Positions 10,613 to 39,930 of a DNA stretch of 64,000 bases are shown in pieces. The notes under the pieces were generated by a model. The model searched no databases. It was not told the origin of the DNA and saw only the letters and a list, made by a program, of their open reading frames with translations. The DNA comes from Fragilaria crotonensis (taxonomy: Eukaryota; Bacillariophyta; Fragilariophyceae; Fragilariales; Fragilariaceae): the NCBI GenBank assembly GCA_022925895.1, contig JAKSYS010000174.1, positions 1-64,000 on the forward strand. Reading direction: 5' to 3'. Made by a program: the position numbers and the translations under genes. Within the stretch, counting starts at the first letter, position 1. Every line of letters starts with the position of its first letter.

Positions 10613-10626
10613 CATCAGAAGGTGGG
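10613..10626 (+). repeat. T1 left terminal inverted repeat
   Basis: CATCAGAAGGTGGG, matching the reverse complement of 15825-15838. It is preceded by the TA duplication. Confidence 0.85.
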
Positions 10627-11147
10627 TTTTTGTATCACTGACAATATATGTTAACTATTTGTTAAGAAATTGTAATATGTTGCTTGAAGTCACGTATATG
10701 TTATCACTATTTGTATGTATTTAGTCATTCTATACTGCGACATTTCTCAGAGTCATATACTGTGGCAAAATATATTTATATTAAACCAATGTGTGTTACC
10801 TAGTAGCATCTATGCGTATAACTTACCTTAACAGTTGCAAATGTAACAATGTTTCTCTAAACATTTTTACTTTATACTGAATACATGTGGTAAGAGTATC
10901 GCATGTGGCTCATTAAATTGTTTGTTCTGAACAGACTCTAGATATTCATACGCCATATACATTTAAGCCATGTTTTTACGACCATCCATTGTTTGGTATT
11001 GGTTTGCGAAATTTTCAAGCTTTTGGTTTTGGGGGAGACGAGCATTTTATGAACCAACCATTTCTTGTCTCCTTCCAAATATACGCTTACGCATGAACAA
11101 AATTGTGATATTTTGTCTTAACTCCACACACACTCTCATCCAACAAG

Positions 11148-11770: not shown

Positions 11771-11779
11771 CGGTCCCGA

Positions 11780-12522
11780 TGACAGTAGAACACTCCACAC
11801 TGAGGCAGGAACAAAACCGCTGCCCTGTAGAAATAATCCATCTCAGGGCCAACATCTTCTGGTTTTCGGGGACAGGACGTGACGAACTTCATCAAAATTG
11901 ACGTCAGAAGACCGGCCACCGCCACGCTCCCCCGCCTCCCCACAACCGTTCGACAATGTGGCCGGCGAAGGAGCCCGGTTGAGGATCACGTCCATCACGT
12001 AGAACTCGTTGAGGAACTCCGACTGGAGTCCAGACTCCGGGAACATGTCGGCAGCCGAACGCAATCTAAACGGCTTGCATCCAAAAGCTTCTGCAACGAC
12101 ACTGATCGGAGTCTGACACAAGAATTCACTGCACCCAACCCCGCTCGCCGTCCTGAACCTTTGCCGGAATGCACTCCTCTCCTCCGGAACAACGGCCATG
12201 GACAACAACGACATCATGCGTAGGTGAGTCGGGCGAGTCTGCCTCTCATCGCGGTGAGTGGGGAGGGACTTCCCCCCGTCCGCCACATCACCGACTCCTG
12301 GAACACGTGGCGAGTTCCCAAGGTTTCTAACAGATGTCACGCTCGGGGAAGTCTTATTCCCGGTCTCCGCGACCTTCTTCTTTGTGACCTTCTTCTTTGT
12401 AACCTTCTTCTTCGCAACCTTCCTCTTCCCAGCCTTCTTCGTCCCAACCTTCCGTTCCCCATCCCTCCCCCCTCCACGACCACATTTTCCACAGCATCAA
12501 CGCCACGTCGATCGGGCGACAT
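11780..12522 (-). pseudogene. Truncated head of the T-family dioxygenase-cargo gene
   Basis: Starts at 12522 with MSPDRRGVDAVE, parallel to MSHNRRGGDRVA of the T2 gene. A lysine repeat (KKKVTKKKVTKKKVAETGNK), absent from T2, follows. Then come GNSPRVPG, LLSMAVVPEERSAFRQRF, SGLQSEFLNEFYVMDVILNR and YFYRAAVLFLPQCGVFYCHR, each with a close T2 counterpart. Frames change near 12345 and 11870, and homology ends near 11780 at the deletion junction. The dioxygenase-like C-terminal domain is absent. Single copies of the upstream sequence that is triplicated in T2 lie at about 12545-12640. Confidence 0.7.
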
Positions 12523-12699
12523 CGGGCTCTCTCCTGCTTCCTGGCAGGTGAAGGCCGCGCAATGCCAGTTCCAACCTCACAACAACCAGCCACAGAGGAT
12601 GGTTGTCGCGAGCGCGCGCTCTCCAACAAAGACAATCAACACGCAATCCTGGCGTGGACTGTCTATTTGTTGAAAAGTCAGCGAGAACTATCCGACGGC

Positions 12700-13671
12700 G
12701 ACGTGGTGATGTTGCAACAAACAGCAACCCAACAAGAGTACTTCATCAAAGTACTCTATCATCAAGAGTGCTTTTTTGGTGTCACCATTCACCAAAGGTA
12801 CTAACAAGCAGCAAAATCGACGTACTGTAAGTACTATGGCGAATGTAGGGCATTTTGCACCTGGGACTTCTTTCCAAGACCTCTAAATGCAGCATAAATA
12901 TGTTATTCATGTATATAACATTGAATTACGTTATATACACATTCATCGATTTTATTAAAATTATGTATGTAGTTAAATGAAAAAGTAATTACAGTACAAA
13001 GCATTTTCATGTATAGATGATACATTCGTTTCCCAGGACAGGACTACATACTGGTACAGGTACACTATACTGCACCAGTATGTAGCAACAAATCAGTACG
13101 AACACAAAAACGTAATGCTTGCTTAATGCTTAATACATGGATGTACATATATATGCAATTTACATCATGTATGCATACGCACCACGACACGCTCGAATGA
13201 TTACCAAGAACTAGCTGCCGGTATGACACAGGTGTTGCATACTCCGAGTACAACAACTACTACTGGTAGTGAAACAAGATTGCAAGTCCGTCCACGCAAA
13301 AACAAGACTGCAGCGAGCATCATGTCATATATAATTTTCTAGTCACACATATTCATACAAGTATATGAAACGGAAAATGTCAGAAGCTAAATAGTGAACA
13401 TGTAAGTGCATTCAAAAACAATAAACGACTTGCACATGTTTTGTGAATATAAGTCGTAACTAATACAATTTTTGTCGAAGTCATGTACAGGTAGAAAATG
13501 AACAATTAGGGACAACTCATACAATTTTGAAAACTGGTGGGAGATTCAAAATCCCAAATTCATCACCCAAAATTACAAGTCGTCTCATACTTGCTGCAAA
13601 TTGATACAACCACTGAGACCGCTATTCTAACCCTTGCTTGCTTCTTCTTACATTTTGATTCATTCGTCCTC
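12700..13671. other. T1 internal noncoding region
   Basis: About 970 bases between the two divergently transcribed cargo genes, AT-rich, with GTAC-type words. It presumably holds both promoters. No specific site was identified. Confidence 0.35.
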
Positions 13672-15404
13672 ATGCCGAAAACATCTCCAACTAAGCAACC
13701 TTCAGTGGCTAGTACTCGGACCACGCCTCCACGCGCGACCAAGAACAAGACGAAGAACGCCGAACTTGAAACACCGACAACAAGAGCCAAGAGGAATGAG
13801 ATGGCGGAACAGCAAAAGGCTGAAGCTGCTAAAGCTGCTAAAGCAGCTGCTAAAGCAGCTGCTAAAGCAGCTGCTAAAGCTACTGCTAAATCTGCGGCTA
13901 AATCTGCCGCTAAATCTGCGGCTAAATCTGCGGCTAAATCTGTTAAAGCATCGACGACTGCAGTTAACCCGGACCCACCAGTGCAGATCGCGACAGCAGT
14001 TAACCCAGACCCAGTGCAGATCACTGCAAAGGGACGCAAACGACGTGTTGTTCCTCCTCGTGGTAAGAAGAAGAGGAGGAAAGTGGCACCAAAAAAGGTG
14101 GTGGTGGTGAGCAGAAGGAGCGCTCCTGAGGAAATTGATGACTCCTCTTACTCAGTTGAAGAGGTTGACGATGAAGAGTTTGAAGAGGTTGACGATGAAG
14201 AGTCCGAATCAGATGATGACAGGGAGGATGAGGGGAAAAGTAATGCGGGTGATGACAACAACGTGGTGACACATGACATGTCAGATGATGACGACTCTGT
14301 TCAAAGAATGGATCAGTTTGTTAGAGATGTCGGGAAAACAGCAATGGATGCAAGACGACGTCTTGGTCAGGAGTTGAACCACTGTGCCCAGGAAGGCGCG
14401 GAGGATCCTCCAGATGACAATGATACTCCAACGGCGAAGAAGAAGGTGTCGTCTACGCATGTTCAGCACGATGTATGCGATGACAATGAGTCCAATGCGC
14501 CGCCACGAGAAGAGAAGCACGTGAGAAATCGAATTGTGATATACGTCAAAAACGAGTTGTTCCGTCGATGTAAGTTTGTTAACAGTCCAGTTATGTTCCG
14601 AAGGGCGTTTCGAAAGGTGCTTGAAATTGAAAAGCCAAAAAATCATTTCCTTTTTCAGTTGACATACGAGAAATGTTTCAATACAGCGTTGAACCAGAAA
14701 AGGAGTACGTGTGAACAAGCTGGTCTCAGAATTGTTCAGGGCGCAATCAATAAGGATTTCAAAACACGCGGCGAAGACTTCTTCACGTTTGAAGAATTCT
14801 GTAAGCTTAGGACAGCAACAACAGACAGGGAGAAAAGGGCCTTCTTCTTCTTCTTTGATAAATTCTTGGAGTGTGTATGTGGTGCAAATGCGTGGAGAAT
14901 TGCGAAGAAAACAATGCTTGTATCGGAGGCGCGGCACAGCGACAATTCGAAAATGGTAACAACAAGTGACGAAGCGTTTGCATTGTTGCTGATTGACAAC
15001 TATTTGGAAAAATGGAAAACCGGCACGGAGTTGGTTGACAAAGACAACCCAACGGAAGCAGATGATGGGCAGAATATGACGACGAAGAAAACAAAGAGAC
15101 AAGCGGGAAAGTACACTGAAAAGAAAAAGGAACCTGCAAGTATGGTGGGTGGAGCGATGACGGAATAAGACAGTTCAATGCACTGCGCATAATGGTTAAA
15201 GAGAACAGGGCATGCCCGCAGTCAAAAGACATGGAACGTGAGCTGCTGGCATTCTGCAGGACACGGGCAGGATTGAAGAATGCCCGTGGCGATGAGCGGC
15301 AAGAACAGCACGACGGTACTGGTGCTGACAACAATGCATTGGAAACAGCGGTAGCAAAGGTACCTGTGGAGGCAGCATGGGACTCGGATGACGAAAATGA
15401 GTAG
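13672..15404 (+). pseudogene. T1 Lys/Ala-rich cargo protein, frame broken once
   Basis: Unknown function. The ATG at 13672 gives a basic N-terminus (PKTSPTKQPSVASTRTTPPR), then an AKAA/AKSA repeat block at about 13810-13945 that resembles a histone H1 tail, a KKKRRK cluster and an acidic stretch. The conserved domain follows: CKFVNSPVMFRRAFRKVLEI, DFFTFEEFCKLRTATTDREK and FFDKFLECVCGANAWRIAKK. Near 15125 an A-run has one base fewer than needed. The following frame continues as GGWSDDGIRQFNALRIMVKE and MERELLAFCRTRAGL to a stop at 15404, matching the unbroken T2 homologue. A role in DNA or chromatin binding is a guess from composition only. Confidence 0.7.
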
Positions 15405-15838
15405 TAGTTGCTTGTGATTGCGACAGCTGCTGCTGGCAGCCATAGTTCATTAAATGCATTAAAATGGTGGATGTTATGAAAACAAATGGCCAGATTGATA
15501 CAATGTATGCTGAAATAAGAACACCGCAATGCGTAACGAACAAAAATATATGGTGACTTGTTAAAATATATGTCCAAGATATATCATGATATCGCCATAT
15601 GTGATTTTTATAAGTATTTCATTTAAACAAATATGTTGACAGACTATTTGATATGTAACAATATGTGTCACATTGTGAATATAATATTGCATCTATAGTG
15701 TGGAAAGATACAATATATGTTTGAGACAACATATGTGTTAGCCACTTAACATACATGTGCAGAACTTGCGATAGGGATGTCATTATCCGGTAACAATTCA
15801 AAGCTTAAAAAATAGTTAACATATCCCACCTTCTGATG
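15405..15838. repeat. T1 subterminal region with repeated ATATGT words, ending in the right inverted repeat
   Basis: CATATGTG, AATATGTTGACAG, GATATGTAACAATATGTG, CAATATATG, ACATATGTG and AACATACATGTG are crowded into the last 300 bases. The end is CCCACCTTCTGATG (15825-15838). Clustered subterminal repeats are typical of CACTA-like elements (established knowledge). Confidence 0.65.
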
Positions 15839-16974: not shown

Positions 16975-19017
16975 CTATACTTCGGCGGGTACTTGTACCG
17001 GTCTGAAATACGACTGTATTGTTCTTACTCCCTGCCTTGATTGCTCGCGTACTCGTCGGAGGCTGTCTCGTATTAAAGGCGTGTTCATTGTTAGCCAATT
17101 TTGTGTGACCCGTGTGGGCCTCTGCAAATGCGTCATCACATTGGTATGTAACAATTGCTGTACTGGTCGTTCCTTATGTTGGCGGTTGTCGTATATGGTG
17201 GTTAGCTCTCGTGTTATTGCTCGTCGTTCCATCGCTTGTTTTACTTGCTGCCAATGCGTCCATATCACTGTTATCAAATTTTTCTGCCATTGTGTTCCGG
17301 TGCGTCGATATTTGGTGTGGTTACGATGTCGATAGTAATACTCGTCTTGTAGGCGTGTCCATTCTGTACTGAACCTGCCGTTGAATATTTGTCGCCATCC
17401 AATTTGATTCTGCTGGTAAATGAGCCGCCGAGTCTCCTCGGGAAAGAAAATGGGACTGACGATGTCGGGGCTGCAGTCATCGAACCACTGAGTGATAGCT
17501 TCTTTGAAGACGTGACGAAAGATTGGGCTGGTGTTGGCTTTGGCATGGAATCTGTCGAGTTCGGTCCACCAGCGTTCCCTCCATTTTTGTCGTGTTATAT
17601 GTGGGCATCGAAGGATGTGATCTCGAGTTTCTTCGGGATGTTCGCATGCAGGGCACTTGCGATGTCCGGAGTCAAATTTGTTGAGTAAGGCATGCGTCGG
17701 GAGGCAATCGTGCACCAACTTCGAGGTATGAACTAAGGATGACTTCCGACTGCGAAAAACACCACGCCCGTAAGCATGCCAATTTACTGATCTCATCGTG
17801 TGATCCGACCACGCGTATTTTGCTTGGATTTGAGCCTTGAGAGCTGGTCCGGTTGCGAGGAGCCGAATCGTGTCCTCGTATTTGCCTGTGATGGTGCCTG
17901 TGTCATGTACCAGATGTGCTCCTGATCGTGTGGACAGGCAGGAGGACGAAAGGTCGGGGTGTTCCGTATTGGTTTTGATATCGGCCGACTTGCTTATCCG
18001 CATCGACGTTTAGTTGCGCTGGGAGTGGTAATCGATCGTATGGATGTTTGTCGTCTTGATGACCGTTGACGTGAGTGATGGACACTCTCGGTAACAGTCT
18101 CATGCCTTCTTGAATTTCAATTAACAGATCCCATTCGGACGTAAGTTCATCCAGTTTAACTGGTTCGAAGGTCCTCTGGTCGCCTCGAGTCCGGTTTGGA
18201 AGTATCTTATCTAACAAGCTTTGGCTATCCGTTCCGATTACTCCTTGGGGCATTTCGTGAGTGACTGTGTATTGCGAGAGTCGAATCAAAAATCTCAATA
18301 TTGAAAGTAATCCCGTACATTCTGCTCGATATGAATCCATTCGTCTTGTTCCTCGTGCGGGCCCCATTCCATGTGCCATACGCTCACCGAATGCCGTACT
18401 GATTGCCCATCCGAATGCTACTTCTTTATCTCCGTATTTTTCTGAGCCGTCGCTGCCTGCGAAGAATTGAGTCTGTAGTTCCAAACTCACCGGGAACGGA
18501 TCTGGTGACAGATCGTGGTGTTGTAGTAAATCTTTTTCCCAGGGATCAAGAGTATCAATGAATTCCTCAAATGTACCGTAGGTAATTGGTGGTGCCGGTC
18601 GAAGCGTTTGTGTAACCTGAGTAATTCTCCATGTGGTTGCATTGCGCAGGATAACTGTAACCGGCTGTGCGTGCTCTGGGATATCTTTGTAGTGGATGAT
18701 CCGAAGTGGGTTGTGCAGGTTGTCGGTGAAATCGCGTCCGTCCTCCTGTGGACATGCGTTGTATTGGGTACCCTCTTTTCTGACAGCGAGTATGTTGTCG
18801 TATTGGTACGCTAGGCATTGGATACGTCGTTCTTTGGAATGTGACCGAGTCCATTTTCCCAGCGGTTGGAACAGGATGCCATTGGGATAGCTCCATAATT
18901 TATTGGCTCTTTTCCATAGGCGCCATTCCAGTTCTGACGGTTTCTCTTGATGAATGCGCATCCATCGGCTGGTCGTACTGAATAGAGATGTTGAACCGGA
19001 GAGTTTTGCTGGATCGA
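16975..19017 (-). pseudogene. LINE A ORF2, 3' part: RNase H domain and C-terminal zinc finger
   Basis: Minus-strand continuation of LINE A ORF2 beyond T2. It reads from DPAKLSGSTSLFSTTSRW through WKRANKLWS to an RNase H domain: FAGSDGSEKYGDKEVAFGWA, TRRMDSYRAECTGLLSILRF, GTDSQSLLDKI and VNGHQDDKHPYDRL...LNVDADK. A one-base frame change lies near 17925, after which SGAHLVHDTGTITGKYEDTI continues. The zinc-finger-like block KCPACEHPEETRDHILRCPH follows, and the protein ends at 16975. The order matches LINE C. The RNase H acidic residues are present, but the polypeptide is split by T2 and the frame change. Confidence 0.8.
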
Positions 19018-19435
19018 CATCAGAAGGTGCAAAATGTTTACTTTATTTTTACTTGGTAAGAGTTACCGAGTAATGACCTCCGATCTGTAACATCTCAACA
19101 ATAAATGGTTACTCTGACCAATTTTGTTGATGAAACCATAAAATGTTGTCTTTCACCAATTTAATCACAATCTAATGTTACAAATCAACATATTTTGCTA
19201 GATATGACCTTTTGAGCAACTATATTTGTTTGTCTTGATCACTGTTTTATGGTTGCTCCTTGCAAGTTTTGTTCATTAATTTGTTGTTCAGTAACCAAAC
19301 AGATGTTGCTTTTTCACCAGACGTTGTATCCTGTAAGCATTTCATTCTACAAATAGTATACAGCTATTTTCTTTGCATATTGGCTCATCGTAGTGCTAGA
19401 AGAAATGTTTAAACTAGTCTCTCAAGTCCATTTGC

Positions 19436-21150
19436 TTAGTCGTCCAAGTCCCATGCTGCCTCGACCGGCAGTGCTTCAGTTCCTTCCGCCGCATTGTTGT
19501 TACCATGACCCTCCTGTTCGTGTTGTGCATTGTTGTCATCTATTCCCGCCTGAGCCCTGCAAAATGCCATCAACTCCCTTTCCATTTGTTCCGATTGCGC
19601 GCTTGCTCGGTCGTCTTGAACAAGATTGTATAGTTCATTGAAACGTGCAGTTCCATCACGGCTCCACCCACCATACTTGCAGTGCCCATTTTTTTTTGCT
19701 GTATACCTTCCTGGGATTTTTGCCGCCGCCTTCTTCTTTTGCCTGTTGCCGTTGGTTCCCACCTGTCTCGCTGTATTGTCGACGTCATGATTGTTAGCAA
19801 CTTCATTAGCGCGTGCCTTTTCCTCCTCTGCCAGAACGGTAACCCACTTTTCCATATAATTATCGATGAGCAACAAACCAAACGCTTCATCACTTTTAGT
19901 TACAAGTTTTCCACCACGCCCATCTGCGGCTTTTGACACCAACGTGGTCTTCTTTGCATTTCTCCACTGCCTTGCCCCGCATACACATTCCAAGAACGTG
20001 TCAAAGAACCAGAAGAATGCATTCTTCTCTCTTTCTGTTGTTGCTCTCCTGAGCTTACAGAATTCGTCAAAACTGTAAAACTCTTCTCCACGTTGTTTGA
20101 ACTCGGCGATTGCTTTCCTTGCAAGTGCCCCACCTGTTTGTTCGCACGAACTCCTCTTCGTATTCAATGCATGATTAAAACAACTTTCGTACAGCATTTG
20201 AAAACTTACACGCTTGTTAGGCTCCACTTTTTCATGATTCATCACCAACTGGAATGCTCTTTGGAACATTGCGTCGTTATTAATGAACTTGATTCGGCGG
20301 AATACATCTGATTTAACAAATTGAGTAACACGATCTGCCACATGCTTCTCTTGCTTCTGAATAGATTCAGCCTTTGACAAGCCACGAACCGAAATGCCAA
20401 CATCAATAATCTGACGTGACGGCAACATGACATTAGGATTTGAATTGTTTGGAGGATCCACTGCACCTTGTTGGGTACTGCGGTTCAACTCCTTGCGACG
20501 AGCCTCAGCCCTCATTGCTGCGGCTTCTGCCTCGTCCTCCATTTCCCTTCGATACCCATTGTATCTCTGTCGACGTCCCCTGCTGTCATCCTCATCTGAT
20601 GAAGTTGACGACCAGCCATGCTTTTCCTTATTTTCAGCGTCGTTGTTGTTGGCGGGTTCCTTCTGTCCCCCGTCGTCATCACTTGATTCGTCCTGCACAG
20701 CATCCTCATACACCTCCTCTTCATCATCCTCCTTGTCATCGTTCTCCTCGTCAACATACTCCTCTGATTCGGATGTGCTTTCAATGTCATCGAGTATCAA
20801 CTTCTGTACCACCGATTTTCTTGGTTTAATTGACTTTCTCTTCTTACCAGCACCAGCAACACGTTTCTTTTTGTTCTTGGTGGTCACACTTTCGACAGCA
20901 TCGGATTCGTCACCATCAGGTTTGCCCTTGTCACCATCCGCCGGATCATTCGTTGTTTTTGTACGCTTATGATTTGCAGCAGCAGCACTTTCATTTACCT
21001 TCTTTCGTTTGTTATTTGTCGTTTTGTAGTCTTTGATCCTCCGCCTTTCGTTACATGCTGCTGTAGTTGTGCAGCTCCGCCTTTACGGGTGCGTGCCTGC
21101 TTCTTGCGTGGTGATGTCCAAGAAGCTGCTTTGGCTGCTCCTCTGGCCAT
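19436..21150 (-). pseudogene. T2 Lys-rich cargo protein, homologue of the T1 gene
   Basis: The long open part (from about 20890 to 19436) encodes a basic start with KKKRVAGAGKKRKSIKPRK, an Asp/Glu-rich stretch, then the conserved domain: RRIKFINNDAMFQRAFQLVM, EEFYSFDEFCKLRRATTERE, FFDTFLECVCGARQWRNAKK and DEAFGLLLIDNYMEKW. The C-terminal block is CKYGGWSRDGTARFNELYNL...MERELMAFCR, ending WDLDD. The likely start is the ATG at 21150 (MARGAAKAASWTSPRKKQAR), which requires a one-base frame change near 21060 or a short unseen intron. The C-terminal block is intact here but frame-shifted in T1, so the two copies define the whole protein. Function unknown. Conservation alongside the transposase suggests a role in transposition or element chromatin (inference). 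Confidence 0.7.
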
Positions 21151-21992
21151 GATGCATGTATCTTTAACTACAAGCAAGTGTGAAAAAGGAAGTGTGAGAA
21201 AGGCAACAATTCGTAGGATTCATGTATACTACACCATGCGTTTTGAATCAGATAGGGATTTTTGAATGCGAAGCAGTTCGCCATGTTTGTTTAATATATA
21301 CCGTCACATGATTAAAACATATTTTTTTATAGTACAAAATCAACATACATGCGTAAGATGTATCATGTGTTGTGTTTGAATGCAGGTTGATGGTCAGTAC
21401 TCAACAGCTGAGTTTTCCGTTACTGCGTAAGTCATACGTTGAGTTTAGTCGTATCTGTTGTTGACATTCCCGCATTCCTGCATTCGTTTCATTGTTTGTA
21501 CCGCAACCACGTAGCATTGCATATATATATATATATAGAGTCTATTTTTACCACTATTTGTTTTACTTAGATACATTATTATGTTCAGTATACACAACTA
21601 TTAATAGTAGTTCATACTACTTCAGAGTTTGTATCGACGAAAAATCAGATTTACATAGAGAGTTATTGTAGTTATATAAGAATCATAAAAAATTGATTTC
21701 TAACTGCTACGTACCATGTAGTAGAAACTGTGCGTACAATTTTTTAGTCATTTCCCATGACAGCAATATGGCATACATGTACATAGTTAATTAGTTTAGT
21801 ATAAATTACATATTTGTATACTTATATACGTCATGTGGTTATACACAACATATACAAGCATTTCCTAAGTAGTTTGAGTTCCTGTACTCAAGTCCCAGGT
21901 GCAGAATCGCCTCTTTTTTGCATAGTAACACTGTAATCCCTGTTTCGTGCGTTATGTGTTCCTGTTGTCATATATGACACCACAAAGCAATT
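21151..21992. other. T2 internal noncoding region between divergent genes
   Basis: AT-rich, with an (AT)n tract at about 21520-21535. It separates the minus-strand Lys-rich gene from the plus-strand dioxygenase gene and should contain both promoters. Confidence 0.4.
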
Positions 21993-22021
21993 GCACAATT
22001 GCTTCTCAGAAGCAATTGTGC
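21993..22021. repeat. Perfect 14-bp inverted repeat with one-base loop
   Basis: GCACAATTGCTTCT, then C, then AGAAGCAATTGTGC. It lies exactly where the 177-bp tandem triplication begins. It could form a hairpin or cruciform, or be a dyad protein site. Confidence 0.85.
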
Positions 22022-22542
22022 ATTCGTTTGCTTCGCGATTGTCACCATTGCTGTCGGATCCTCGTTCTCCTCGCCAATTCGACGATCAGAGGCTCATTCC
22101 CCGCCAGAAAGCAGGGAGAGTTGCCATTGAGTTGTCGAAGACGCGCTCGCATTCCCACCAGTGGTGGTCGTTGCGAGGAACTGAACTGACATCGTGCATT
22201 CGTTTGCTTCGCGATTGTCACCATTGCTGTCGGATCCTCGTTCTCCTCGCCAATTCGACGATCAGAGGCTCATTCCCCGCCAGAAAGCAGGGAGAGTTGC
22301 CATTGAGTTGTCGAAGACGCGCTCGCATTCCCACCAGTGGTGGTCGTTGCGAGGAACAGAACTGACATCGTGCATTCATTTGCATCGCGATTGTCACCGT
22401 TGCTGTCGGATCGTTCTCGCCAATTCGACGATCAGAGGCTCATTCCCCGCCAGAAAGCAGGGAGAGTTGCCATTGAGTTGTCGAAGACGCGCTCGCATTG
22501 CCACCAGTGGTGGTCGTTGCGAGGAACTGAACTGACATCGTG
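22018..22542 (+). repeat. 177-bp unit in three tandem copies
   Basis: Units start at GTGCATTCGTTTGCTTCGCG (22018), at about 22195 and at about 22372. The third is 171 bp after small deletions; otherwise the copies are almost identical. The block GCGGCCTTTACTTGCCAGAA just after the third copy leads into the dioxygenase gene. T1 has the equivalent sequence once, so the triplication arose in the T2 lineage. Confidence 0.85.
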
Positions 22543-22577
22543 CGGCCTTTACTTGCCAGAAAGCAAGAGAGGGCCCG

Positions 22578-25053
22578 ATGTCGCATAATCGACGCGGTGG
22601 TGATAGGGTCGCGGGCATGGGCAATAAGACTTCTCCGTGCAAGACGTCGGTGCTAAATTTGGGGAAGACACCGCGAGTGCCAGGATCGCATGTTGTGGAC
22701 GAGAAGAAGGATGCAAAGAAACAACTCCCAGCAAAGCGCAACGAGAGGGAGAGTCTCCCGACAAATAGGAGGATTATGAGGCTGTTGTCGATGGCGGTTA
22801 TTCCTGAGGAGAGGAGTGCTTTCAGGCGACGGTTCCGGCGGGCAAGCAAGGATGAAAGGAAGCATGCAAAATCAGAACAAAGCAATCTGTGCCACGTTCC
22901 GATGAGTTGGATCGCCAAAGCTTTTCAATGCGAGCCGTTCCAGCTACGACGGGCGGGCGACATGTTCCCCGAGGCGCGGATTGAATCGGAGTTCCTTAAT
23001 GAATTTTACATTATGGATGTCATTCTGAACCGGGCGCCTTCATCAGCAGCAGTGACAGGGGCTCCATCTGATCACAAGAAACAACCTGTTGTTGATCCGG
23101 ACGTGGTCCGACCGTTTCGATTGTACCAGCCGGATGATGCTCTACCTGAGAAGGATTATTGTTATAGGGCTGCTATCCTTTTCTTACCCCAGTGCGGCGT
23201 GTTCTACTGTCATAGGGAGCGTCGTAGGGGAGATGTTGGTGTGCCGGGCTCATTCATAGCCCATGACATGAGCTGGCTACGCCTGCAACGTGAGGTGACG
23301 TGTGGTGGTCGTGAGGTGTCGTACAAGTTTGGCAGCGACAGCTTTGTGAAGCGATTTTATACTGAGCATACGGGCCATTGTGTCTATCGTGATGAGCATG
23401 ATATCAGTTCTGGTTGGCACTTCCTTGATGAGAATCACCGCGTGTCAGCGTGGAGGATTTCCACTGGGAGAACACACCATTCCCAACAGAACCGAGTCAT
23501 CTACAGGGCTGTTCAATGCCACGATGCAGATGGTCCCAAGTTGGCACCTGATTTATTACAGGGCTGCAACTTTGGCACCTGCCCTCGTGACTATCTGGCT
23601 GCCGAGTACCAACAGCGGCTTGCTTCTTCTTCCAGCGCAAGGAAAGATGGCCGGCACTATGTTGCCGGGTATCTTCACTACCAGCTGCCTGATTCTTGTT
23701 GGATCATCGATCCCATGGACAACCACTTTGTTGATGTGATGGTTGATGTCGACACGGTTGGTGATGGGATGCGGAGTCGCCAGTCTGTTGTTATGATCCG
23801 GAACGTCACTAAGATCGACACTGACGATGACCACATCGGATTGCTTGAGCGTATCACGTCACACAACACGGAGCTTTGGAAGGTGGAGGGTAAGGGACAT
23901 GCGCGCAATAAATGTGAGGATCTTGGGACGATGCATGCCATCGGAACAAGAATACCACTTGGAAGGGTGGGCACGCCGGCTCCGTACTCTGCAAACGGGA
24001 AGGTTCCGGTGGGTGCCCTTCGTGATTTAGTTGTCAACTTGGCAAGCCTTGGGAGTCGCTGCTTCCACAGGTGTACTCCGTTGTTAGGGACGTGGAGGGG
24101 ACTCCGGCATGCTCCCAGTTGAGCCAATGGGCGGTGAGGCTCTCACTGATAACGAGGATGCTGACGAGGCGATGGATGGGCACGATGTGGAGCTCGATGA
24201 CGAGGAATCAATCGTCCATGAGAAGGCTCGATCAAAAGTTGAGCGTTGCCGAAGGGTCGGGTACACCATCGACATGAGTATCAACCTCGGGAACGCGTCG
24301 CATTTCGACGTGCATGACGCGTCCCCGGGCTACAGTGTGTGGACTGAGGAGGTGCCTGGCCGTGGTGCCAACTGGTTTTTTGTCCTTCCAAATATACATG
24401 GAACAAAACCTGATGGGCGGAGCACGTTCCGTGGCATGGCGGTGAGGCTTGGCCATGGCGTGGCCATCAGCTGGGATGGCCGCGTGATCCGTCATTGTAC
24501 ATCTGTTTCCCATCCGGATGGGATGGAGAACGGGAGGGTTGGTGGTGCGGTTGATTCGCATTTCCGTAACCATCTCTACGGAACGTTTACTGCTGCAAAG
24601 GAACGAATTGTGCAGGCGGGAAGGGTGCTGTCTGCTGCCAAGTACTGTGTGCCGACTCCTCCCTCGGAAAAGGACGACTCCGACGTGCTGCCTCGGGGAA
24701 AGAAGAAGAAGAAGAAGAAGAAAAGCGGACGCAAGAGAAGCGGACGGGGGCAGCAAGTTGATAAAGTTGATGCTGCGGAGCCAAACGTGAGTGTCACGAG
24801 CGGGGACGATGTCGAGTCGTCGGTTGTTCTCTGTCACCATCGTGTGATGTCGGGGGTCGATGTTCAGTTGACGACTGATGGGAGAACACGAGCGGGTGGA
24901 CGTGCTCAACCTGACAATGACGAACGAAAACGCAGAGCTGTGCACCCCGATTGTCCTGTAATTTGCCGGGTGCAGGCGGGAGACTTGGATGTCGGCGGTG
25001 TGTACAAGATACCAAAGAAAAGGAGAAGTGCCAGTGGGACAAGTAACTACTAA
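22578..25053 (+). pseudogene. T2 cargo gene: large protein ending in a putative 2-oxoglutarate/Fe(II) dioxygenase domain
   Basis: The first open part (22578-24060) has a basic N-terminus and conserved blocks LLSMAVIPEERSAFRRRF and EFLNEFYIMDVILNRAPS. The second (24109-25053) holds GYTIDMSINLGNASHFDVHD, WTEEVPGRGANWFFVLPN and GHGVAISWDGRVIRHCTSV, then a Lys run (KKKKKKKKSGRKRSGRG). HFD is a candidate HxD iron motif, RHC supplies a possible distal His, and an Arg 14 residues later could bind 2-oxoglutarate. This arrangement recalls the TET/JBP side of the superfamily (inference). The two parts connect through LPQVYSVVRDVEG in a third frame, so one-base shifts near 24055 and 24107 split what looks like one gene. 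TET/JBP genes are known as transposon passengers in fungi, which supports the reading without proving it. Confidence 0.65.
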
Positions 25054-25087
25054 TACGAGTACTTCCTTGTCAAAATGATCGCTGTCT

Positions 25088-27920
25088 CTACTTCTTCCTT
25101 TTCTTTCTACCTGTGGTATCAAGAACAGCATCTCGTGCAGCAGTGTCGGCGGCTACCTCTTCGGCAGTCTTGACCGTTAGGACTTCTGTGCCATTAGCCA
25201 TCGTGGCTACGTTCTCATACTCTTTCTCCAAGGCTATGTCGTCTGTATCATAGGAACTATTGATAATGGAATCCCAGACCTGGGGCCAAGCAACTTTGCG
25301 ACGGATCAGGAAGAGATGATGACGTTTGTGTTTCGGTATGTTCTCTAAAGCGCATCCGACATCTGGAATGCCAACTGTTGGCGACCTGAGTGATTCGACG
25401 TCCACCAGGTACAATGTTGGCCTTTCACTTGGTGACGGGCGATGCAGAGTATAACGCCCTATCAGGGTGTTCTCGCTGTCCATTTCCTTTTCATCGACAG
25501 CATCGAAGGAATGGACAAGCGCATACAACCCCGCCCTGATTTCCTTCTGCCCGGTTGAACGAATACTTATTGATTTTCCTTTTGGAAGGCCACGCAGATC
25601 GACAAATGTGTGGATGAGCGCGGGAAGATGAGCATCAAGCTTGAACCACTTCACCATCGCATGATCATTCCACGGTCTGCCGTCATAACAGGGATGGGCA
25701 CGAAACAGATCATTGTTGATGGTAACAAACTCAGTGAAGCATGGAAGCCGGCTGTCGGGAATGTGCGGCAGGCAGAAATTAGCCAGGTACTCTGTGACTA
25801 CATGTGACAAATGGGACTTCTCTGGATCATCAGAGGGCCCCTTTCGGTACCACTCAAATGTGGCGCATTCATCACCATTGAACCATGAAAGGGTGAATTT
25901 ACGGCCGGACATCCTGCCGGTCGCACCCGCTTCTGAGATGTTGGGTGCTGCCATTGGCATGGATTGGGTTCTTGTGGACCTGTGGCCCTTCAGTTTGTGA
26001 TCATTCACCACGTCTGCAGATGCAAGTGATACAACAATGTTCTCAACGTAACGATGAGCCGCTTGTTTTGTGAAGGAAACGGCACGTTTCTGTGTGTTAC
26101 GTGATGTCATCTTTGCGAGGGGAATGTGGGCCGACTCGGCAAATGCACTGTTCACGTTGTCGGGAACACCATGGTCAAGGATGTCTTCGCAAAGATGCAA
26201 GACCAAGTGCTTTTTGATCGTGTTGTTTGTCATTCCAGTGGTGCGAGGTGCAACTGTGGCCACTAGGCGCATCAGCCACTGCACAGCAACATGTGAAGCC
26301 TTCACCTGCTTCTTTGCGATGGACGGTTGCTTCATCCATTGGTGCCATGTTAAGAGGGACGAGATGACCAGAATCCAATCTGAAACATGGGCTTCATTCC
26401 TCAGCCTTTGCTCTTCGGGAGGCGCAGCCGCTTTACGTTTGGTGTTCCCAACAGAGAAGATACTGTGGAAATAAGTGGTATGTAGTGCAAATAACTTAAC
26501 CAGGAGACACCCCGCCATCTCGTGTCCCATAAGATTTGATCCGGAGGAGAATCCCTTCGGGAAGTTCGTGCGTGGGATGTCGCGGTCACTCTGTCTTGAC
26601 AATCTACTGCCCAACGTTGCACAGAGTCGATCGTACTGTTTCAACGCCACAGAATTGGTACCACCGGCTTGGGACGAGAGGCCTCGATGCAGTACTTGAA
26701 CCAGCCGAGTGAAATCAGGTGCAGCATTTCACCCGGACAGGCACCAAAAATACCTCGCTGATTGTGTTGACCAAACCGGACTTCATCAAAACCGTTCTTG
26801 AGATAGTTCTGCGAGAGCATCTTGAGCTGCATGGTGTTGCCATTCCTGACAAGTTTATTGATACCTTTTGGCATACGATGGGGAAACTTTGACTTCGAGT
26901 AACCAGTCAAGTATGTTGGACATTCACAGATGCGACAAAGTTGTTGTATCTTTGAGAAGCGTGCAGTGTAGTGCCCACAAAGACGGTCATGACCCTCTGT
27001 GTCCCCTATGATGAAGGGCACGTACAGACGGAACACAACGGGATGAATTGTTCTATTGTAGTGGAGATTCCATCGGAATCCCTTCCTCTGTAATCGCAAA
27101 GCCAGATTCCTCAAGAATAAACTGGATCTGTATGTGGAGCTCATTCAGGAGATATTCGGCCAAGTCACATCTTTGATGCGCCTGAGTGGGCGTCACAAAC
27201 CACAGTTCCATGTGGTAGGCCTGAAGGTGCATTGAAGTTGATATCCAATTCGGATATGGTGGGGAGGTGGGCGGGTGCGCTATGATTTATGTACCCAAGG
27301 ATGCGCATGGCAATTGGAAGGCGACGCACAGTATGCTTCAAAAGACCGTGGGAGAGTGTTATTGGCTCCATCTGGAGCCGACCTGCCATATCAATGTGGG
27401 TCTTATCCATAGCCATAATGCAAGGTAGAAGTATGTCGACACCGATATCCTTTACCAAGGCCTTGTATGTCTTTCTGTAACCACGACCTGTGTTGATGTC
27501 ACCAACATGGGATGCTTTTCCCGATGGCGCGACAAATGGATCCTTTGCACTATCAAATAAAAAATTTTCATCTTGATTTAGAGTGGGACATGAGAGTAGT
27601 GAAGCAAAAACTTCACTGGCATCGAAGTACACAACTGACACCGTCCTCTGTGAGTAAGGAAGGTACAATTGTTTCTCTTTCGGGATCAATCCATTCATGT
27701 TGTACCTTTCATATAAATTTCTCATCACCTTCTCACGAGATGGTTGACAACCCTCCTTGAAGACATGACCACTCGCGTTTGATTTTGCGGCCCAGTTAAG
27801 AACTAAGGTGAACGCTTTGAGAGGAGCTTTCAGATCCCTTAGGAGTTGCAACAGTTCAATTGGACCTTCTCCTCCAAAGAAAAACTCGAGACCAAATCGA
27901 GCAAAAAGTTTCTCATACAA
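25088..27920 (-). pseudogene. T2 transposase, Plavaka/CACTA-like, N-terminus missing and frame-shifted
   Basis: The minus-strand reading runs PIELLQLLRDLKAPLKAFT, then DILLPCIMAMDKTHIDMAGR and RRLPIAMRILGYIN (RNase H-fold core with a candidate catalytic Asp in MAMDKTH). Next come VFRLYVPFIIGDTEGHDRLC, CRICECPTYL, and GIFGACPGEMLHLISLGWFK, a signature of this family in diatoms and fungi. The C-terminal part is NSAFAESAHIPLAKMTSRNT with TKQAAHRYVENI, and a basic end at 25088. Frame changes lie near 27170, 27075 and 26685. The N-terminal zinc finger seen in T1 is absent, with only about 280 bases left before the right end. The Plavaka assignment is from remembered motifs, not a search. Confidence 0.7.
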
Positions 27921-28202
27921 ATCAAAAACAGCTCAATTGTTTTCATAGAAACAAGTAAAATTGGGATGTCATTATCATAACAAAATTGTTGACAGATCAG
28001 TTTATAAACTCGTTGTTTCTTCCAGTAACCAAATTATAAATTGCACTAAACAACACCAGCATCAAACAATATTTGTTTAAGTAATCACAAAGTTACGTTC
28101 AATGTGTACTATTTGTACATTTTTTTAAAACAAATATGTTTACTTCATAACAAAATTAATAACAAATTATGACCATATGACCATAACGCACCTTCTGATG
28201 GA

Positions 28203-31200
28203 GTCGATTGCCGGACACATTGGTTATATCGGACAGTGTTGTTGCATTCAGATAAAGTCGGCAATAATTCAATCGGCGTATCTGAGCCGGAGTAAATTTG
28301 TTTGATCCGAGAATCATCTCCATGATATAGGTATCGTGGATTCTTTCCAATGTTGGAATTCCAGAGCTATCGAAAATGATTGAGAGTTTGTACAACTTGA
28401 GATACTATATGCGGAGCGCTCCCAACCACTTGAGTTCCATGTGAGGAAGGGAGGTCTGGACATCATCGAGGAAGCATCTGGGCAATCCCAAACTATAATT
28501 TGTTCCCCATTCCACTACGTTGCGAAGAAGGAGCCCTGCTACTGTATTTGCTCGCCAATGTTTTAGAACAGTTTTGATTTGACCTATCCCCTGTTGATCG
28601 TATAGTCTCTTGAATCCCGCGCCGCCGTACTCGGCTGGTCCGTACACCATTGCTCAATGTGTGTGTGGATTAAAACCACGCCGTGCTATTATAATACTCA
28701 TTGCCTTCCTCTGAATCTTTGCAAGTTGGGGTTCTGTAAAGTGTGAGTTTGCGAGTGGATAACTGAGACTTGGAACATAACAGGAACAGTAGAATATCCA
28801 TGATTCAGCGCGTGTCAAATGACATTTCCACAAAAACGCCACCACTTCGTCACTTCTCTTTTGGAGTTGTCTTTGTTGTTCTTTCTGATTCCCCGCTGGG
28901 TCTTTGTAATGGCCCAATGTTTTGTGAGCGGTATACGGCGACAAATACTCCAGTTCCTGAATGGTGCCTGAATCACGGTCCGTTACTGTAATTGGGGAAT
29001 ATCGATTACGGTCCGGGTACAACACGGGATCGCCTTGTGCGGAGAATTTCCATGAGATGACATGATAAGAACATTTTGAGAGTTCTAGCGCTCCGCCAGT
29101 AACTCATAACAAATCTGACCATGTCTGCGCGTTTAGTTGCATTTGGTGTAAGGCATCATCACTGGTCTGGTCTGTTTTGTCGGATAAAAAACAGTTTGTT
29201 TGTCCATTGGAGTCGTCTACGAACCCAATCATGCCGACTTCAATGTTGTTTGTTCCGGATGGCGTACAATATATCGCCTTGGCCGCCTGCTTATCATAAC
29301 AGTCATACAACGTACTTGATAAGAAGCACCAAATTGCAGGAGAATTGCCGCTTCCTTGTCCTGTGCCGTATATTGGATTTTGCTGACTGTGTCGATACCC
29401 TGTTGGAGATAGTCCCATATCAGTACGAATACGGTATTCCGCTGCTTCGAGTGTCGTCGCGTTGGTTGCTGTTACTTGTGGGTGCACTCCGTATTTTTGA
29501 CTCACGATCATTGCCACGTTTGGGATAATGCGATCATAGCACGAGGTTGCATCGTAGTTTGTTTGTATTAGAGTTTTCCTAGTAACCCGAGACATTTCCA
29601 GTTGAAGCTTTTCGATCAACACTGGATCTGTTGAGTTACGATATGGTCTTGACCCAAACTGTCCTGAATGTAACGCATTTTTTCTGTTCGCACTGTAAAG
29701 TGCTTCTCTCCATTTTAGTCCCATCGCAAGATTATAGTCGGCTTCATATATGTGGATGACGCGGGTGCGGTGAATTTTTATATTCTTGGGCTCCTTAAAC
29801 AGCATAGTGTTCGCAACTGTTTGCCATCGTTTGAATGAATATCCTCGGCAAAGTGCATAGTTTATGAGTGATAACTGGTCCGTGAGTATGGCATGTTGTT
29901 TTTGGTTCATCTCGTCGCGTTGGGTTCTGAGTTCAAGAGTATCATTGTCGGTCACTTCCGAATAGTGATGCCTTGCTATCATTGCTTTGTAGTGCCCGAG
30001 ATGGATGCCTGAAGGGGAAGTGGTTGTGGATTCTCTCCACACTTTCAACTTTTCTATGAACGATGTTTCGGAAATGGTTGGGAAATTTTCCGTGGTTGCC
30101 ATATCCGCTGTGTGCTGAAGGTGGTCCAAGAATATTCTTACTGATTCATCTGTTTGCTGGGAACTATCGTATCGGCCTTGTAGGAGCGCTTGAACTGATG
30201 CTGTATCTCCACAATAACCAAAGTCATTTGTGAGAGGAGGAATGGTAAAGGGGGTCCCGTGGGCTTGTCCAAAATGTCGCTGGTTACGTGTCTGGTGGTT
30301 AAGCAAGACTTCTGAAGGGATATCAATCAATTTCCATTCGGTACACGTTTTTGTGTCTGATAGTGGATGAAGGGGTATTTTGATTCGTGTTACACCAGTG
30401 CGCTGCAATGTCGTACGAGCTGATTGGATTTTCTTGTGTACCTGCCGGGTCATCTCTGTTTTACAAAGCTGGCGAAGAATCTTTACGCGTTCTCTGTCTC
30501 TTGGTTCATGAGACGCTTGGAGACTTTCCATCATTTTGTTACGTTCTAAGTCCCGGCGTTCATAACTGGTGGAGACTAAGATATGAACGTGAGCTTGCGC
30601 TTGGCGTAGCGCCTGCTGGCATAAACGTAGAGATTTACGGGTCGATACTGGAATGTTGAGAGCATCTAACTGCCGACGTACGTCATCGGTCATGGAAATG
30701 TGTGTACGAATCGATGATAAGCACTTGTGGAGTATCTGAGCTGTGTCCCGTGCTGTCTTCAATTCTGCTGACCAATCTGGCTGCGCGAAACGGGTGATAC
30801 GTCTTTCTGCTGCTAAGCTCGCCGCCACTATGTCTTGATCCAATCGTTCAGCAAATCGATGTCGATTACCCTCTGTCGATAACTTGTGGGATCTTTCGAA
30901 CATGTTGCTTCCAATGAATTGCTCATATTTGAAATTGATATACTCGGTAACTTGCCGGACGTTCGTGGATTGTAACATTCGCGGCTCGTATCTGGAAAGT
31001 GCCTGTGTGTTGGTACCGAACAAGAGACGTGTGTTGAAATCGACGAAATAAGCTCGATGATCTGACGGGTGCCGGTTGTTGAAGGGTTCGTATCCGCAAT
31101 GTTGGACGGCGGTTAGAAGACTTGCTGATACCAGGAAAAAGTCCAGACAGTTCCGACCTCTAGTATATGTATGAGGGAGAGATTGTTCGTGTCTCGAATT

Positions 31201-32031
31201 CATTACATCCACTAGTTGTGCTTCGTGCATGATCCGGATGAGACCGTCTGGATCGGATCCAATGACTTCATTGAAATCGCCCGTGAGTACTATGTCGGAT
31301 CCTTGGCTTATGCACGTTTTTAAATAGAGGAGAAGATCTCGTCGAAATGCTGCTCGTGGGGAGTGCAGAATATCCTGAGTTTGCAGTAACAACGTGTGCT
31401 GTTGAGCTGCCACTGTGATTTGACCCGGATGAACGACATCACTGACTACTTGGTATGCAGATACGATCGTTATTTTTTTGTTGCTTCCTCCCCGAAATGT
31501 TTGACTCACCCATCGTCCCCAGCGGTCCGATGTTTGGTGTTCTATCCGTCCGGTTGCGTTAGCCATTGTAAGAATCATCGTGCCTCCAGGTTTGTATGTC
31601 GATTTGCAGTCCAATGGTGTTGTTCCAGCGAGCATTCGGGATCGTTGCCAATGTTGACGAGTAGAATCATACATGATACTTTTAACATGTGGCTTTCGTA
31701 CGTCCAAATTATGTTCCTGTCCGCAATATACGTCTGCTTGTATTTCTCGCAATACTTTACATAAATCATCAAATTGACCTCCTCGCCGGTCCAATGTGAA
31801 ACCATTGACATTTTGACAATATACTCTGAAGTCGCCCGAGTCTTTTTCTTTCAAGTTATCTCCCCAATGTATGTTGGTAGCCTGATGATGAATATTTGCT
31901 AATATACCAGCTCTTTCCTTGGCGAGCTGTTTGTCGTTTTGGTGACCATGATGTTCGAATACTTTCTTCCACACGGTTTGAGCCACTTGAAGTCGTGAAT
32001 GTCCAATTGACTCACACATGATATTGTTCAT
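28203..32031 (-). pseudogene. LINE A ORF2, 5' part: endonuclease and reverse transcriptase
   Basis: ORF2 opens at 32031, or more likely at the second ATG (32019), where ATGTGTGA overlaps the ORF1 stop by 8 bases. The apurinic-type endonuclease includes RVYCQNVNGFTLDRRGG, CGQEHNLD, LTGDFNEVIGSDP and PSDHRAYFVDFN. The reverse transcriptase includes TNYDATSCYDRIIPNVAMIV, GTGQGSGNSPAIWCFLSS and FVDDSNGQTN (FVDD in place of YADD). The frame is then held to T2, but in-frame stops occur at 29104-29106, 28654-28656 and 28405-28407. So decay here is by substitution, not indel. ORF2 resumes beyond T2. Confidence 0.82.
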
Positions 32032-34543
32032 TGTTCGTGACCATCTCTACGGGCGTCGCTTGAGCTGGTCGTTTCTTATCCCCTTGTTCGGAATTGTCGG
32101 AAGAGCTGTCTCCCATTTCTTGATGGGTGTCTTCATACTTTAGTGGTTGTTGACTTTCAGCGTATCTTCCATGCTGGGAATGGATATCTTGTATGTGCGA
32201 TGGGCTTAGGAGCTCGTCATGATGATATACTCCTGACTGGATGGGGAAATATTGGTATTCAGGAGGCATTGACGTAGAACAATCATCTCAAACAATATCG
32301 TCATCTTCAGGACCTGAGTGTAGGGGATGGCGTGGGTCGGAGTAAGGCATTGGACTGTCGATATCGTAGTCGTCATAAAATTCACTTGGGTGCGGTGGCT
32401 GATATTGCGTTGAAAGTGTAGGCGGACTTTCTGGGGCAAACCGTGGGACCGGGGGCAAAGATAGATCATTCCTTTGCTGTGATGGTATATTTGCTTGCTT
32501 TTGCGGTACTAGATGGTGTTTTATTGGGAGTGCACCTGAGATCGGGTCTTTTGTGGTCATCTCTTGCACTTGATAAAGGTGACTGGTTGGTACCATACAT
32601 CTCGTCGGTCTCCACAGTTAGATCGATAACAGCGGGACGTTTCCCGATGATTGTGGGAGGTTGAGTCGGCTCAACTTGTGGTGGTAGCATTCGAGAAATC
32701 ATTGTCGTCAATAGCTGAATTTGTCGATCGTGATTTTCAAACATCCGTGTAAAATCGGGTGGATTTGGTGCTGGTGGTGGTGGTGGATTCATTGCCATAT
32801 GCTGTTGTAATGCTTGAGCAATCTGGCGGTCGAACTTTGCTTCCAGTTCAACTTGTTTTGCTGCTGAACGTGCTTCCATTTCTTTCCTTTGATCCTCCAT
32901 TTTGTTTTCCAACTCTTTGCGTTGAGCCTCTGCTTGTTTTTCAAATTCGAGCTTTGTGCAGCCTGGTGAAGTTCAAGTTCTCGCTTCTGTTGGTCTGCTC
33001 GAACTTCTAGATCTCTGTCTTGTTTTGCTTTGTCGTCTTCAAGATGTTGGACTTTTCTTCTCAGGTCCTCTACTTCTGCACGGCTTGATGCAAGATCGGA
33101 AATCAATTCTTCGTCACTCGTTGTCTGGGAATGAGTTGTTACTGTAGGATTGATTTGGGTAGCTATGTTGCGTGATTTCAACGGAAAGCCTTGGACCCTA
33201 TCTGCCCACGATGGTAGTTTTGAATTTGCAGTCCCGAGTGAGTTGTCATCTGGTGTTGAGGGTTATTAGTGAATGTCCAATCCGAGAGCGCCGAGGCGTA
33301 TGACATTGCTGTGTTGACACTGGCTGATAGATAAGTAGCTTCGCCGCTGGAATTTCCGTCCGAGTAAATAGATGCTACTTCTGGTGGGCCGTCATATAAA
33401 TTTGCTGCTGGTTTGGCGTCGTCTGGAACATGAGAATTATACCATTGGCTGAGGGACTCGAGAAGTATCTTGCGAACTTTTTGGAAATCGTCTTTATGTA
33501 CCAAAACCTTGTGTTTCCCAAGGTGTTCTGCTTTTGGAATGCTGATTACATCCAAAACGCCTTCTACTGATAGAATTCTGTCTGCAAGATAATACATGGT
33601 ATCTTCACTCACATTATTAAGAATAATCACATGATTGTTCGAAATAGTTTCTGTCTGCTTGCGGATAATGCGAGCAAAAGCTTCTGGGTGTTTGGCTCGC
33701 ATTTGGAATGAAGTAAATTCTGTCGAAGTCCGGTACACACTCTTGAGAATCTTAAGCATATCCGTTGCTGTACTTTTTCTTTTCGATTGCATACGCTTTC
33801 GTTCTGAGCTCTTTTCCTTTATATATAATCTTGCGTGTGCAATACGCCAGATGGAACTTTGGGAGCTTTGTCTTTGCGGGAAAATGCCTTTTAAGTTCTG
33901 TTGCAACTTTAGATGTAGCGTGAGCCAAATCGTAGTATTGTGGATCAAGACCTTGAATGAAACCCAGTTGCGTTGTATTCCACACATCTTCAGTCCATCG
34001 GTGTTCTGTGAGAAAGCAATTGTGTTTACAAAGAAGTTCGTGCACTTTTGGGAGAGATTTAATTTCCTGAAGTGGGATATTTGTTTGTATACAATGTACA
34101 ATGAATGTAGAAGTGTCTCTGAGCGTGTTCGATCGTCCGGAGGATTGCTTGCCATCGTTGTTTTCTTTGTGGAGATTGTAATGACTCGCATGTTGAGTTG
34201 CGGTCCATGTGAGTGTATCGACTTGTGGCATAAGCGTGCTCCTGTTTGTCATGATAGTGATCTCTTTTCCCATGGACTCTTGAACTGCCTGAATCCAATG
34301 TAGATGAATCTTTGACGGATGAACGGTTGGCGTGTTATTCTTGCTGATGAACCTGAATTTCAAGGTCTTCTCAACGGATTTCTCTTCGTTTTGTCTCACT
34401 CCGCCTTTGCCTGGTGGAGTGACATCCGATATATCATCTGATATGTTCAAACTAGTCATATCCTCGCCTCCATCGCTTGAAAGTTTGGTTGACTGATTCG
34501 TCATTGTCAATTCTGGTTGGTACAAAACCTGCCTGAGATTCAC
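32012..34543 (-). pseudogene. LINE A ORF1, frame-shifted
   Basis: Starts MNLRQVLYQPELTMTN, like MNLLYVLYQREQPMTE of LINE C ORF1. Shared blocks are SKIHLHWIQAVQES, EDVWNTTQLGFIQGLDPQY, NNHVIILNNVSEDTMYYLAD and PPEVASIYSDGNSS. A coiled-coil region follows (SSRAEVEDLRRKVQHLEDDK). Frames change near 33775 (A-run), 33180, 32850, 32500 and 32280. The last frame ends in YHV-stop, overlapping ORF2. No CCHC zinc knuckle was seen. The product is probably an RNA-binding nucleoprotein (inference from LINE biology). Confidence 0.75.
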
Positions 34544-34606: not shown

Positions 34607-34765
34607 GTATATGGAGTATGCATAGTCAATATGGTTTCAATCTCGATGCTTTCGCTGAGACGAACGAATATATACTCTAAATGTAGGTTGATGATTATAT
34701 TCATACAGGACACTTGAAGATACTTAAAAAAAAAAATTAATGCATGAAGATATATATATTGTAAA

Positions 34766-34863
34766 ACCCGCAAATTAACTTTCACCATCCCACCTCACCT
34801 CCCACCTCCCCCACCAAAACCGAAAACTGTGGGTGACAGTGACACCCTCATCAAAAACCTGCG
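34766..34863 (+). promoter_or_regulatory. Recurrent promoter-like module, before the ankyrin-kinase gene
   Basis: AATTAACTTTCACCATCCCA, then a CT-rich run with CACCTCACCTCCCACC, then GGGTGACAGTGACACCCTCA and TCAAAAACCTGCG. It ends about 120 bases before the chosen ATG. The same order recurs at 38157, 39761, 52232 and 53805. Regulatory function is inferred from position and recurrence. Confidence 0.55.
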
Positions 34864-34984
34864 ACCCGGACAACGCCCGCGCGCATCAATTCAATCATGC
34901 CTGCCTTCGGGGATTGATGCCTGCTGCACTTCGACTTATGCAGCGCATATACGTTTGGTGCACATCCCTCCCCTCGTCGAACGC

Positions 34985-37958: not shown

Positions 37959-38156
37959 TTACAGATGCACATGCATGTAGTACACACGTATTAGTGATTC
38001 GTGATGATGTTGAAGTACTTGCATTGCCAACAGAGTAGCCTGTATGGTAGAAAGCCTTGCACCGCTTATTACCTCCTCTATATTATGTACTCGGCTACAA
38101 GCACTGTTACGTACACAAGTTAAAAGCAAGAACAAAATACCGTAAAGACACTGCGC

Positions 38157-39853: not shown

Positions 39854-39930
39854 TTGAATGTAATCTTTTGCGTTGCAACTGAGAACGTAGACAGTATCGA
39901 GAAGCAAGAATTGAAAACAAGGGCGGCACG

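Follow-up and report, generated by a model that had tools for sequence, protein, structure and literature searches.

Fungi are reported to harbour transposons with anti-silencing genes of their own (Kojima 2025, PMC12730594). That study splits the Plavaka transposons in two, and one of the groups, PlavakaB, has CATCA..TGATG ends and target-site duplications of 2 or 3 bp; every TET-carrying Plavaka family of that study falls in PlavakaB. According to its section 4.2, the role of anti-silencing genes inside fungal transposons has not been validated experimentally. EnSpm-Plavaka transposons are reported in the green alga Auxenochlorella and Plavaka giant repeats are mentioned for Amoebidium. Among the papers listed for Plavaka, alone or paired with diatom or stramenopile, none is recognisable from its title or abstract as dealing with such an element in a diatom. 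Here we describe T2, an element of 9,183 bp at 19018-28200 of a 64,000-nucleotide stretch of DNA from Fragilaria crotonensis (contig JAKSYS010000174.1), which we call the window. T2 is very probably a PlavakaB-type, EnSpm/CACTA-related cut-and-paste transposon that carries two genes next to its transposase gene: one encodes a Lys-rich accessory protein, the other a large protein, the cargo, that ends in a basic tail. A related element, T1, lies at 10613-15838. All coordinates are those of the window, and strands are given where assigned.

The sequence CATCAGAAGGTGC reads inward from both ends of T2 (19018-19030 on the + strand and 28188-28200 on the - strand). The two ends share these 13 bases and diverge beyond them, and a GA lies just outside each end, at 19016-19017 and at 28201-28202. 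The exact 12-mer CATCAGAAGGTG occurs four times in the window, at both ends of T1 and both ends of T2, with about 0.008 occurrences expected by simple arithmetic. When up to two mismatches were allowed, 11 matches were found in the window against a shuffle mean of 7.0, and 11 of 100 shuffles had at least 11; as this is near the shuffle level, weight was given only to the exact matches. Joining the T2 flanks with one GA kept restored a frame of a long interspersed nuclear element (LINE), open from residue 6 to residue 211, the end of the translated stretch, and reading ATTLSDITNVSGNRLDPAKLSGSTSLFST across the junction. Residues 6-204 of the joined flanks aligned with the frame of another of the window's LINEs, at 42917-45061 (39.8% identity, E 6e-42), and the alignment crosses the junction at residue 73. 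The joined flanks are the empty site of T2, and the host sequence of the insertion is a LINE. Since the empty site restores the LINE frame, T2 arrived as a single 9,183-bp unit. The naming of the LINE is based on an endonuclease Pfam match at 29107-32046 (E 1.6e-10); a reverse-transcriptase match at the same place and a zf-RVT match at 16978-18009 were both under the Pfam cut-offs, and the LINE piece adjoining T2 (17906-19042) had no Pfam match of its own. It might be argued that the inverted ends arose by chance around genes from nested or unrelated insertions, as 12-mers with up to two mismatches are about equally frequent in shuffled sequence. The empty site refutes this, and the exact ends, the duplication and the sharing of ends and gene order with T1 also speak against it, so that we give it next to no credence.

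From the right end, T2 contains the transposase gene (- strand), the cargo gene (+ strand) and the Lys-rich gene (- strand). The transposase gene (25088-27932) is truncated at its N-terminal end and has three frame breaks, near 27180, 27085 and 26690. Its N-terminal piece matched the Plavaka profile PF18759 over residues 93-215 (E=1.1e-6; 28.6 bits, with a cut-off of 26.3), and the pieces joined by X at the breaks reached 30.0 bits (4e-7). The termini of T1 and T2 agree with PlavakaB, as both elements have CATCA..TGATG at their two ends and 2-bp duplications, GA in T2 and TA in T1. Candidates for the motifs of the CMCT clade of DDE transposases were picked by eye (AMDKTH, IIGDTEGHD, CRICEC and GHEMAG), with no clear H(3-4)H, and frame breaks fall inside that part. 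An earlier sequence-only reading of this DNA had placed an element with 13-bp inverted ends, a GA duplication and three gene units at 19018-28200 and had called its transposase Plavaka/CACTA-like. The coordinates proved exact, all three genes are present, and the comparison with transposase profiles that it had proposed gave a match above cut-off.

T1 is flanked by a TA duplication and, compared with T2, has lost about 4.5 kb from its interior. It contains an N-terminal piece of the transposase gene (11148-11789, + strand) with a motif, CTVCNKSFKRLLHHLNQSLACKSH, that is absent from T2; the motif was labelled C2H2-like by eye, and the piece had no Pfam match. A remnant of the N-terminal part of the cargo gene follows at 11746-12564 on the - strand (57-65% identity by tblastn, E 5e-61), and the Lys-rich gene is nearly whole at 13672-15404 on the + strand, with one frame break within 15110-15160. 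The order and relative orientations of all three genes are identical in the two elements. Alignment to T2 indicates that the deletion joins the N-terminal part of the transposase gene to that of the cargo gene at base 1158 of T1, and tblastn detected no middle or C-terminal transposase piece and no C-terminal cargo piece in T1. We therefore do not regard T1 and T2 as two copies of one working gene set, as had been claimed before; T1 is a relative of T2 with an internal deletion. The same reading had found two of the three genes in T1, which is an undercount, since pieces of all three are there. From the element's end to a homologous transposase residue there are 268 bp in T2 and about 940 bp in T1, and the missing transposase N-terminus of T2 is a genuine length difference. 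Because of this missing part, T2 probably depends on a complete relative for its movement. Neither T1 nor T2 looks capable of moving alone.

We then compared synonymous and nonsynonymous differences between T1 and T2 in a protein-guided alignment of five segments, 497 codons in total, of which 177 are from the cargo gene. The proportion of synonymous differences, pS, was 0.53-0.72, reaching 0.67-0.72 in the segments of the cargo gene and in the core of the Lys-rich gene, values that mark the two elements as old relatives. The ratio of nonsynonymous to synonymous proportions (pN/pS) was 0.36 both for the Lys-rich core (167 codons) and for the longer of two N-terminal cargo segments (137 codons), and 0.32 both for the shorter cargo segment (40 codons) and for the transposase (67 codons), with bootstrap upper limits of 0.47-0.52 for these four segments. 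The C-terminus of the Lys-rich protein gave 0.56 (0.38-0.84; 86 codons). A DNA-only alignment showed an excess of third-position differences in four of the five segments (75/152, 59/123, 19/36 and 23/41; p from 3.3e-5 to 0.012). These differences show protein-level selection in all three genes since the split of T1 and T2. Because this selection acted while the genes were riding in the elements, the cargo and Lys-rich genes are established parts of T1 and T2; it is the strongest new result of the analysis. The earlier suggestion that the extra genes travel with the transposase in a cargo-carrying element is thus borne out, by the shared gene order as well as by selection.

DNA transposons commonly capture genes, and the extra genes could be passively captured host genes of the Pack type that are useless to the element. 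The cargo gene differs in composition from its neighbours, as if of separate origin: its GC content is 0.54 in T2 (22578-25053) and 0.575 in T1 (11790-12560), against 0.466-0.484 for the other genes of both elements. Passive capture is nevertheless improbable, as both extra genes occur in T1 and T2 in the same order and bear the mark of protein-level selection across a deep divergence.

Several observations weigh against the view of T2 as a PlavakaB-type transposon with two established extra genes. The PF18759 match spans only positions 39-161 of a profile of 325, the middle and C-terminal transposase pieces matched nothing in Pfam when searched alone, and the catalytic candidates (D, D, C(2)C, H..H and E) were chosen by eye, without an alignment. 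Known elements of this kind number only two, T1 and T2, and the gene pieces of T1 are fragments, only its Lys-rich gene being nearly whole. The sequence collections searched yielded no related locus. The selection data are limited to the parts shared by T1 and T2 and so do not cover the C-terminal half of the cargo gene with its HxD motif, which T1 lacks, and the C-terminus of the Lys-rich protein had no significant third-position excess in the DNA-only alignment (29 of 74 differences).

Three-frame translations read by eye showed five clear single-base frame breaks in about 7 kb of T2 coding sequence, and a sixth is presumed in the N-terminal part of the Lys-rich gene. Reading these breaks as decay was considered and set aside. 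The conserved host gene for a mitochondrial-type Lon protease at 2531-5600 is broken likewise, near 3383, 3907, 3945 and 5266; three of its pieces, taken after the first one and before 5266, fall consecutively on human Lon in the PDB comparison. As Lon shows such breaks too, T2 is not called dead on their account, and assembly errors would reasonably account for many of the breaks. The error rate is not uniform across the window, since both open reading frames of a LINE of about 8.7 kb at 53676-62380 are open.

The Lys-rich gene of T2 (19439-21150, - strand) encodes a charged N-terminal part, a core (19844-20350) and a C-terminal segment with KYGGWS. The reading frames point to a presumed start ATG and to a presumed frame break near 21060-21080. 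In the core, T1 and T2 share 61% identity. Pfam searches yielded nothing over the cut-off for either protein (best E 0.21 for T2 and 0.6 for T1), and the T2 protein had no PDB match at E up to 1. An AlphaFold2 model of part of the protein, from a two-row alignment, was all helix with a pLDDT of 44.4, too poor for a fold search. Other transposon superfamilies have second proteins beside the transposase, for example TnpA or Myb-like partners, and by analogy we take the Lys-rich protein as a putative DNA-binding partner of the transposase.

The cargo gene (22578-25053, + strand) encodes a protein of about 825 residues with a basic, lysine-rich C-terminal tail, and has two frame breaks within 24060-24130. 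Just upstream, at 22015-22536, lie three tandem copies of a unit of about 176 bp, possibly promoter or leader repeats; copies 1 and 2 agree at 99%, and for copy 3 the figure is about 94%, with gaps. The sequence-only reading had named the cargo protein a dioxygenase, to be checked against PF12851 and the 2OG-FeII families. Its pieces, its core and an X-joined read-through were compared with Pfam, including Tet_JBP (PF12851) and 2OG-FeII, and no family was reported at a limit of E=10, where the HMMER filters discard most matches above about 0.1. NCBIfam gave no match, the first half of the protein had no PDB match at E up to 10, and the second half had a single, unrelated one at E 0.32. As candidates for the HxD/E...H facial triad of TET/JBP enzymes, the protein contains HFD and RHC, with 62 residues from D to H, but the bare motif is commonplace: when sequences were shuffled 5000 times each, H-x-D...H turned up 1754 times for the 147-residue core and 3282 times for a 321-residue piece (35-66%). 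The dioxygenase label is therefore not upheld by these comparisons, and we consider both this identity and a DNA-modifying role possible but doubtful; the suggested effect on chromatin is likewise hypothetical.

A stretch at 24202-24642 (+ strand), HFDVHDASPGYSVW ... GRVIRHCTSVSHPD...R, is weakly TET2-like and unconfirmed. Comparison with the TET2 chain gave p values of 0.0175 for the HxD window, 0.13 for the distal window and 0.21 for the whole core in local alignment. In semi-global alignment the core gave p 0.78, and since the best alignment is a trivial end-to-end overlap, this value is either uninformative or speaks against the likeness. The anchored blocks, which were picked after both sequences had been viewed, gave p 0.046 and 0.17, jointly 0.032. 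In these, HFDVHDASPGYSV stands beside HRDLHNMQNGSTLV of TET2, and RHCTSVSHPD (Arg at +14) stands beside LHATTPLKNP of TET2 (Arg at +15); their order matches that in TET2. The apparent resemblance is a lead rather than a result. An AlphaFold2 model of the 147-residue core from a single sequence had a pLDDT of 32.6, too poor for a fold search. When six proteins were compared with PHROGs, the sole match under E 0.01 was to phrog_34964, of unknown function (E 0.0033). It covers residues 181-203 of P0002, the piece with the HxD...R motif, and lies past that motif. A search of P0002 against phages gave no match.

The cargo protein may be no dioxygenase at all, and instead an unknown structural or DNA-binding part of the transposition machinery, in which case the element would modify no DNA. 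We give this reading about an even chance. It agrees with the empty family searches and the unrelated PDB match, with the frequency of the H-x-D...H motif in shuffles and the marginal TET2 statistics, and with the lysine-rich tail. It does not account for the two blocks, HFDVHDASPGYSV and RHCTSVSHPD...R, being ordered like the HxD and distal His blocks of TET2, and a divergent TET would also evade Pfam. The fungal PE-type TET is nearly invisible to sequence comparison, with an HHpred e-value of 1.4 to CMD1 (PMC12730594), so that the protein could be a TET despite the lack of a Pfam match. We hold it possible, with less confidence, that the cargo protein is such a divergent TET/JBP-like oxygenase, which would oxidise the element's methylated bases and so let it evade silencing by DNA methylation. 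Besides the TET2-like blocks, the ends favour this, as they put T2 in the same sublineage as the TET-carrying fungal Plavaka elements (PMC12730594). The absence of PF12851 from the reported matches, the marginal statistics of blocks chosen with both sequences in view and the CpG content argue against it. CpG observed/expected ranged from 0.76 to 1.15 in 13 stretches, LINEs included (T2, 0.89; T1, 0.91; whole window, 0.97), with the lowest value in the T2 transposase gene. Since CpG is not clearly depleted, no clear methylation mark is seen in these stretches.

For T2 as a PlavakaB-type transposon with accessory and cargo genes, the following course may be proposed. The transposase would cut at the 13-bp ends, and the Lys-rich protein would bind the element DNA or aid in assembling the complex, by analogy with TnpA or Myb-like partners. 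The cargo protein would serve the element rather than the host. It might, though we doubt it, oxidise modified bases so that the element escapes silencing, as proposed for TET-carrying fungal transposons (PMC12730594). Somewhat less likely still, selection may have preserved, independently in a non-fungal PlavakaB lineage, a base-oxidising enzyme of high divergence together with a dedicated Lys-rich partner. T2 would then be a three-gene transposon editing its own epigenetic marks, and the enzyme would add a new branch to the PU, AG and PE types. A probably non-fungal Plavaka with two selected cargo genes would suggest that the recruitment of helper genes is a general habit of the lineage, and T2 supplies concrete proteins for testing. 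If the cargo does modify bases in a diatom host, demethylation brought in by the transposon would be set against a methylation system of which DNMT5 is part.

Searches of viral contigs, by protein, by alignment and by one DNA pattern scan, gave no confirmed relative of the three T2 proteins; they would reveal close relatives only, the collection is non-eukaryotic, and the negative is weak as the scans require short exact peptide patterns. One candidate from the genome-contig scan, a contig of a Bdellovibrionaceae metagenome-assembled genome (L001), was dropped because its match was 24 residues in a frame broken by stops. PF12851 was found neither in that genome nor in 14 control genomes, which makes the comparison uninformative.

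Elsewhere in the window, a stretch that encodes the SMC5/6 complex subunit Nse4 is present in three copies that are 94-97% identical and lie within 47 kb (7003-8421, 37963-39592 and 52041-53675). The first copy, the only one tested, matched PF08743 (E=2.7e-21). Nse4 and the mitochondrial-type Lon indicate that the window is eukaryotic. Two of the copies belong to a segmental duplication, in which 37963-41424 is 94-97% identical to 52041-53675 plus 62381-64000, the second copy being split by the LINE at 53676-62380. As this LINE splits the second copy and has both frames open, its insertion is probably later than the duplication. An open frame at 34748-37219 encodes ankyrin-like tandem repeats of 34 residues (102 bp) followed by a protein-kinase-like domain, both named by eye, and 15-bp tandem repeats of TACCGTGCAATCCTC lie within an open frame at 6104-6328.

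T2 is closest to the fungal PlavakaB elements with TET (Kojima 2025, PMC12730594), with which it shares a Plavaka transposase, CATCA..TGATG ends, a 2-bp duplication and an extra gene riding in the element. It differs from them in having no TET/JBP match, in its modest Pfam match and in the additional Lys-rich gene of T1 and T2. With EnSpm/CACTA elements such as En/Spm, which encodes TnpA and TnpD, it has in common CA..TG ends, a short duplication, a second protein and internal-deletion derivatives of the kind of T1. In the EnSpm families described in PMC12730594, the termini are CAC..GTG with 3-bp duplications, unlike those of T1 and T2. The KDZ transposons resemble T2 as large transposons with a proposed base-oxidising cargo. 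Iyer et al. in 2014 are said to have described KDZ transposons with TET/JBP. Target-site duplications set them apart from T2, being 8 bp in Zisupton and 7 bp in Kyakuja (PMC12730594).

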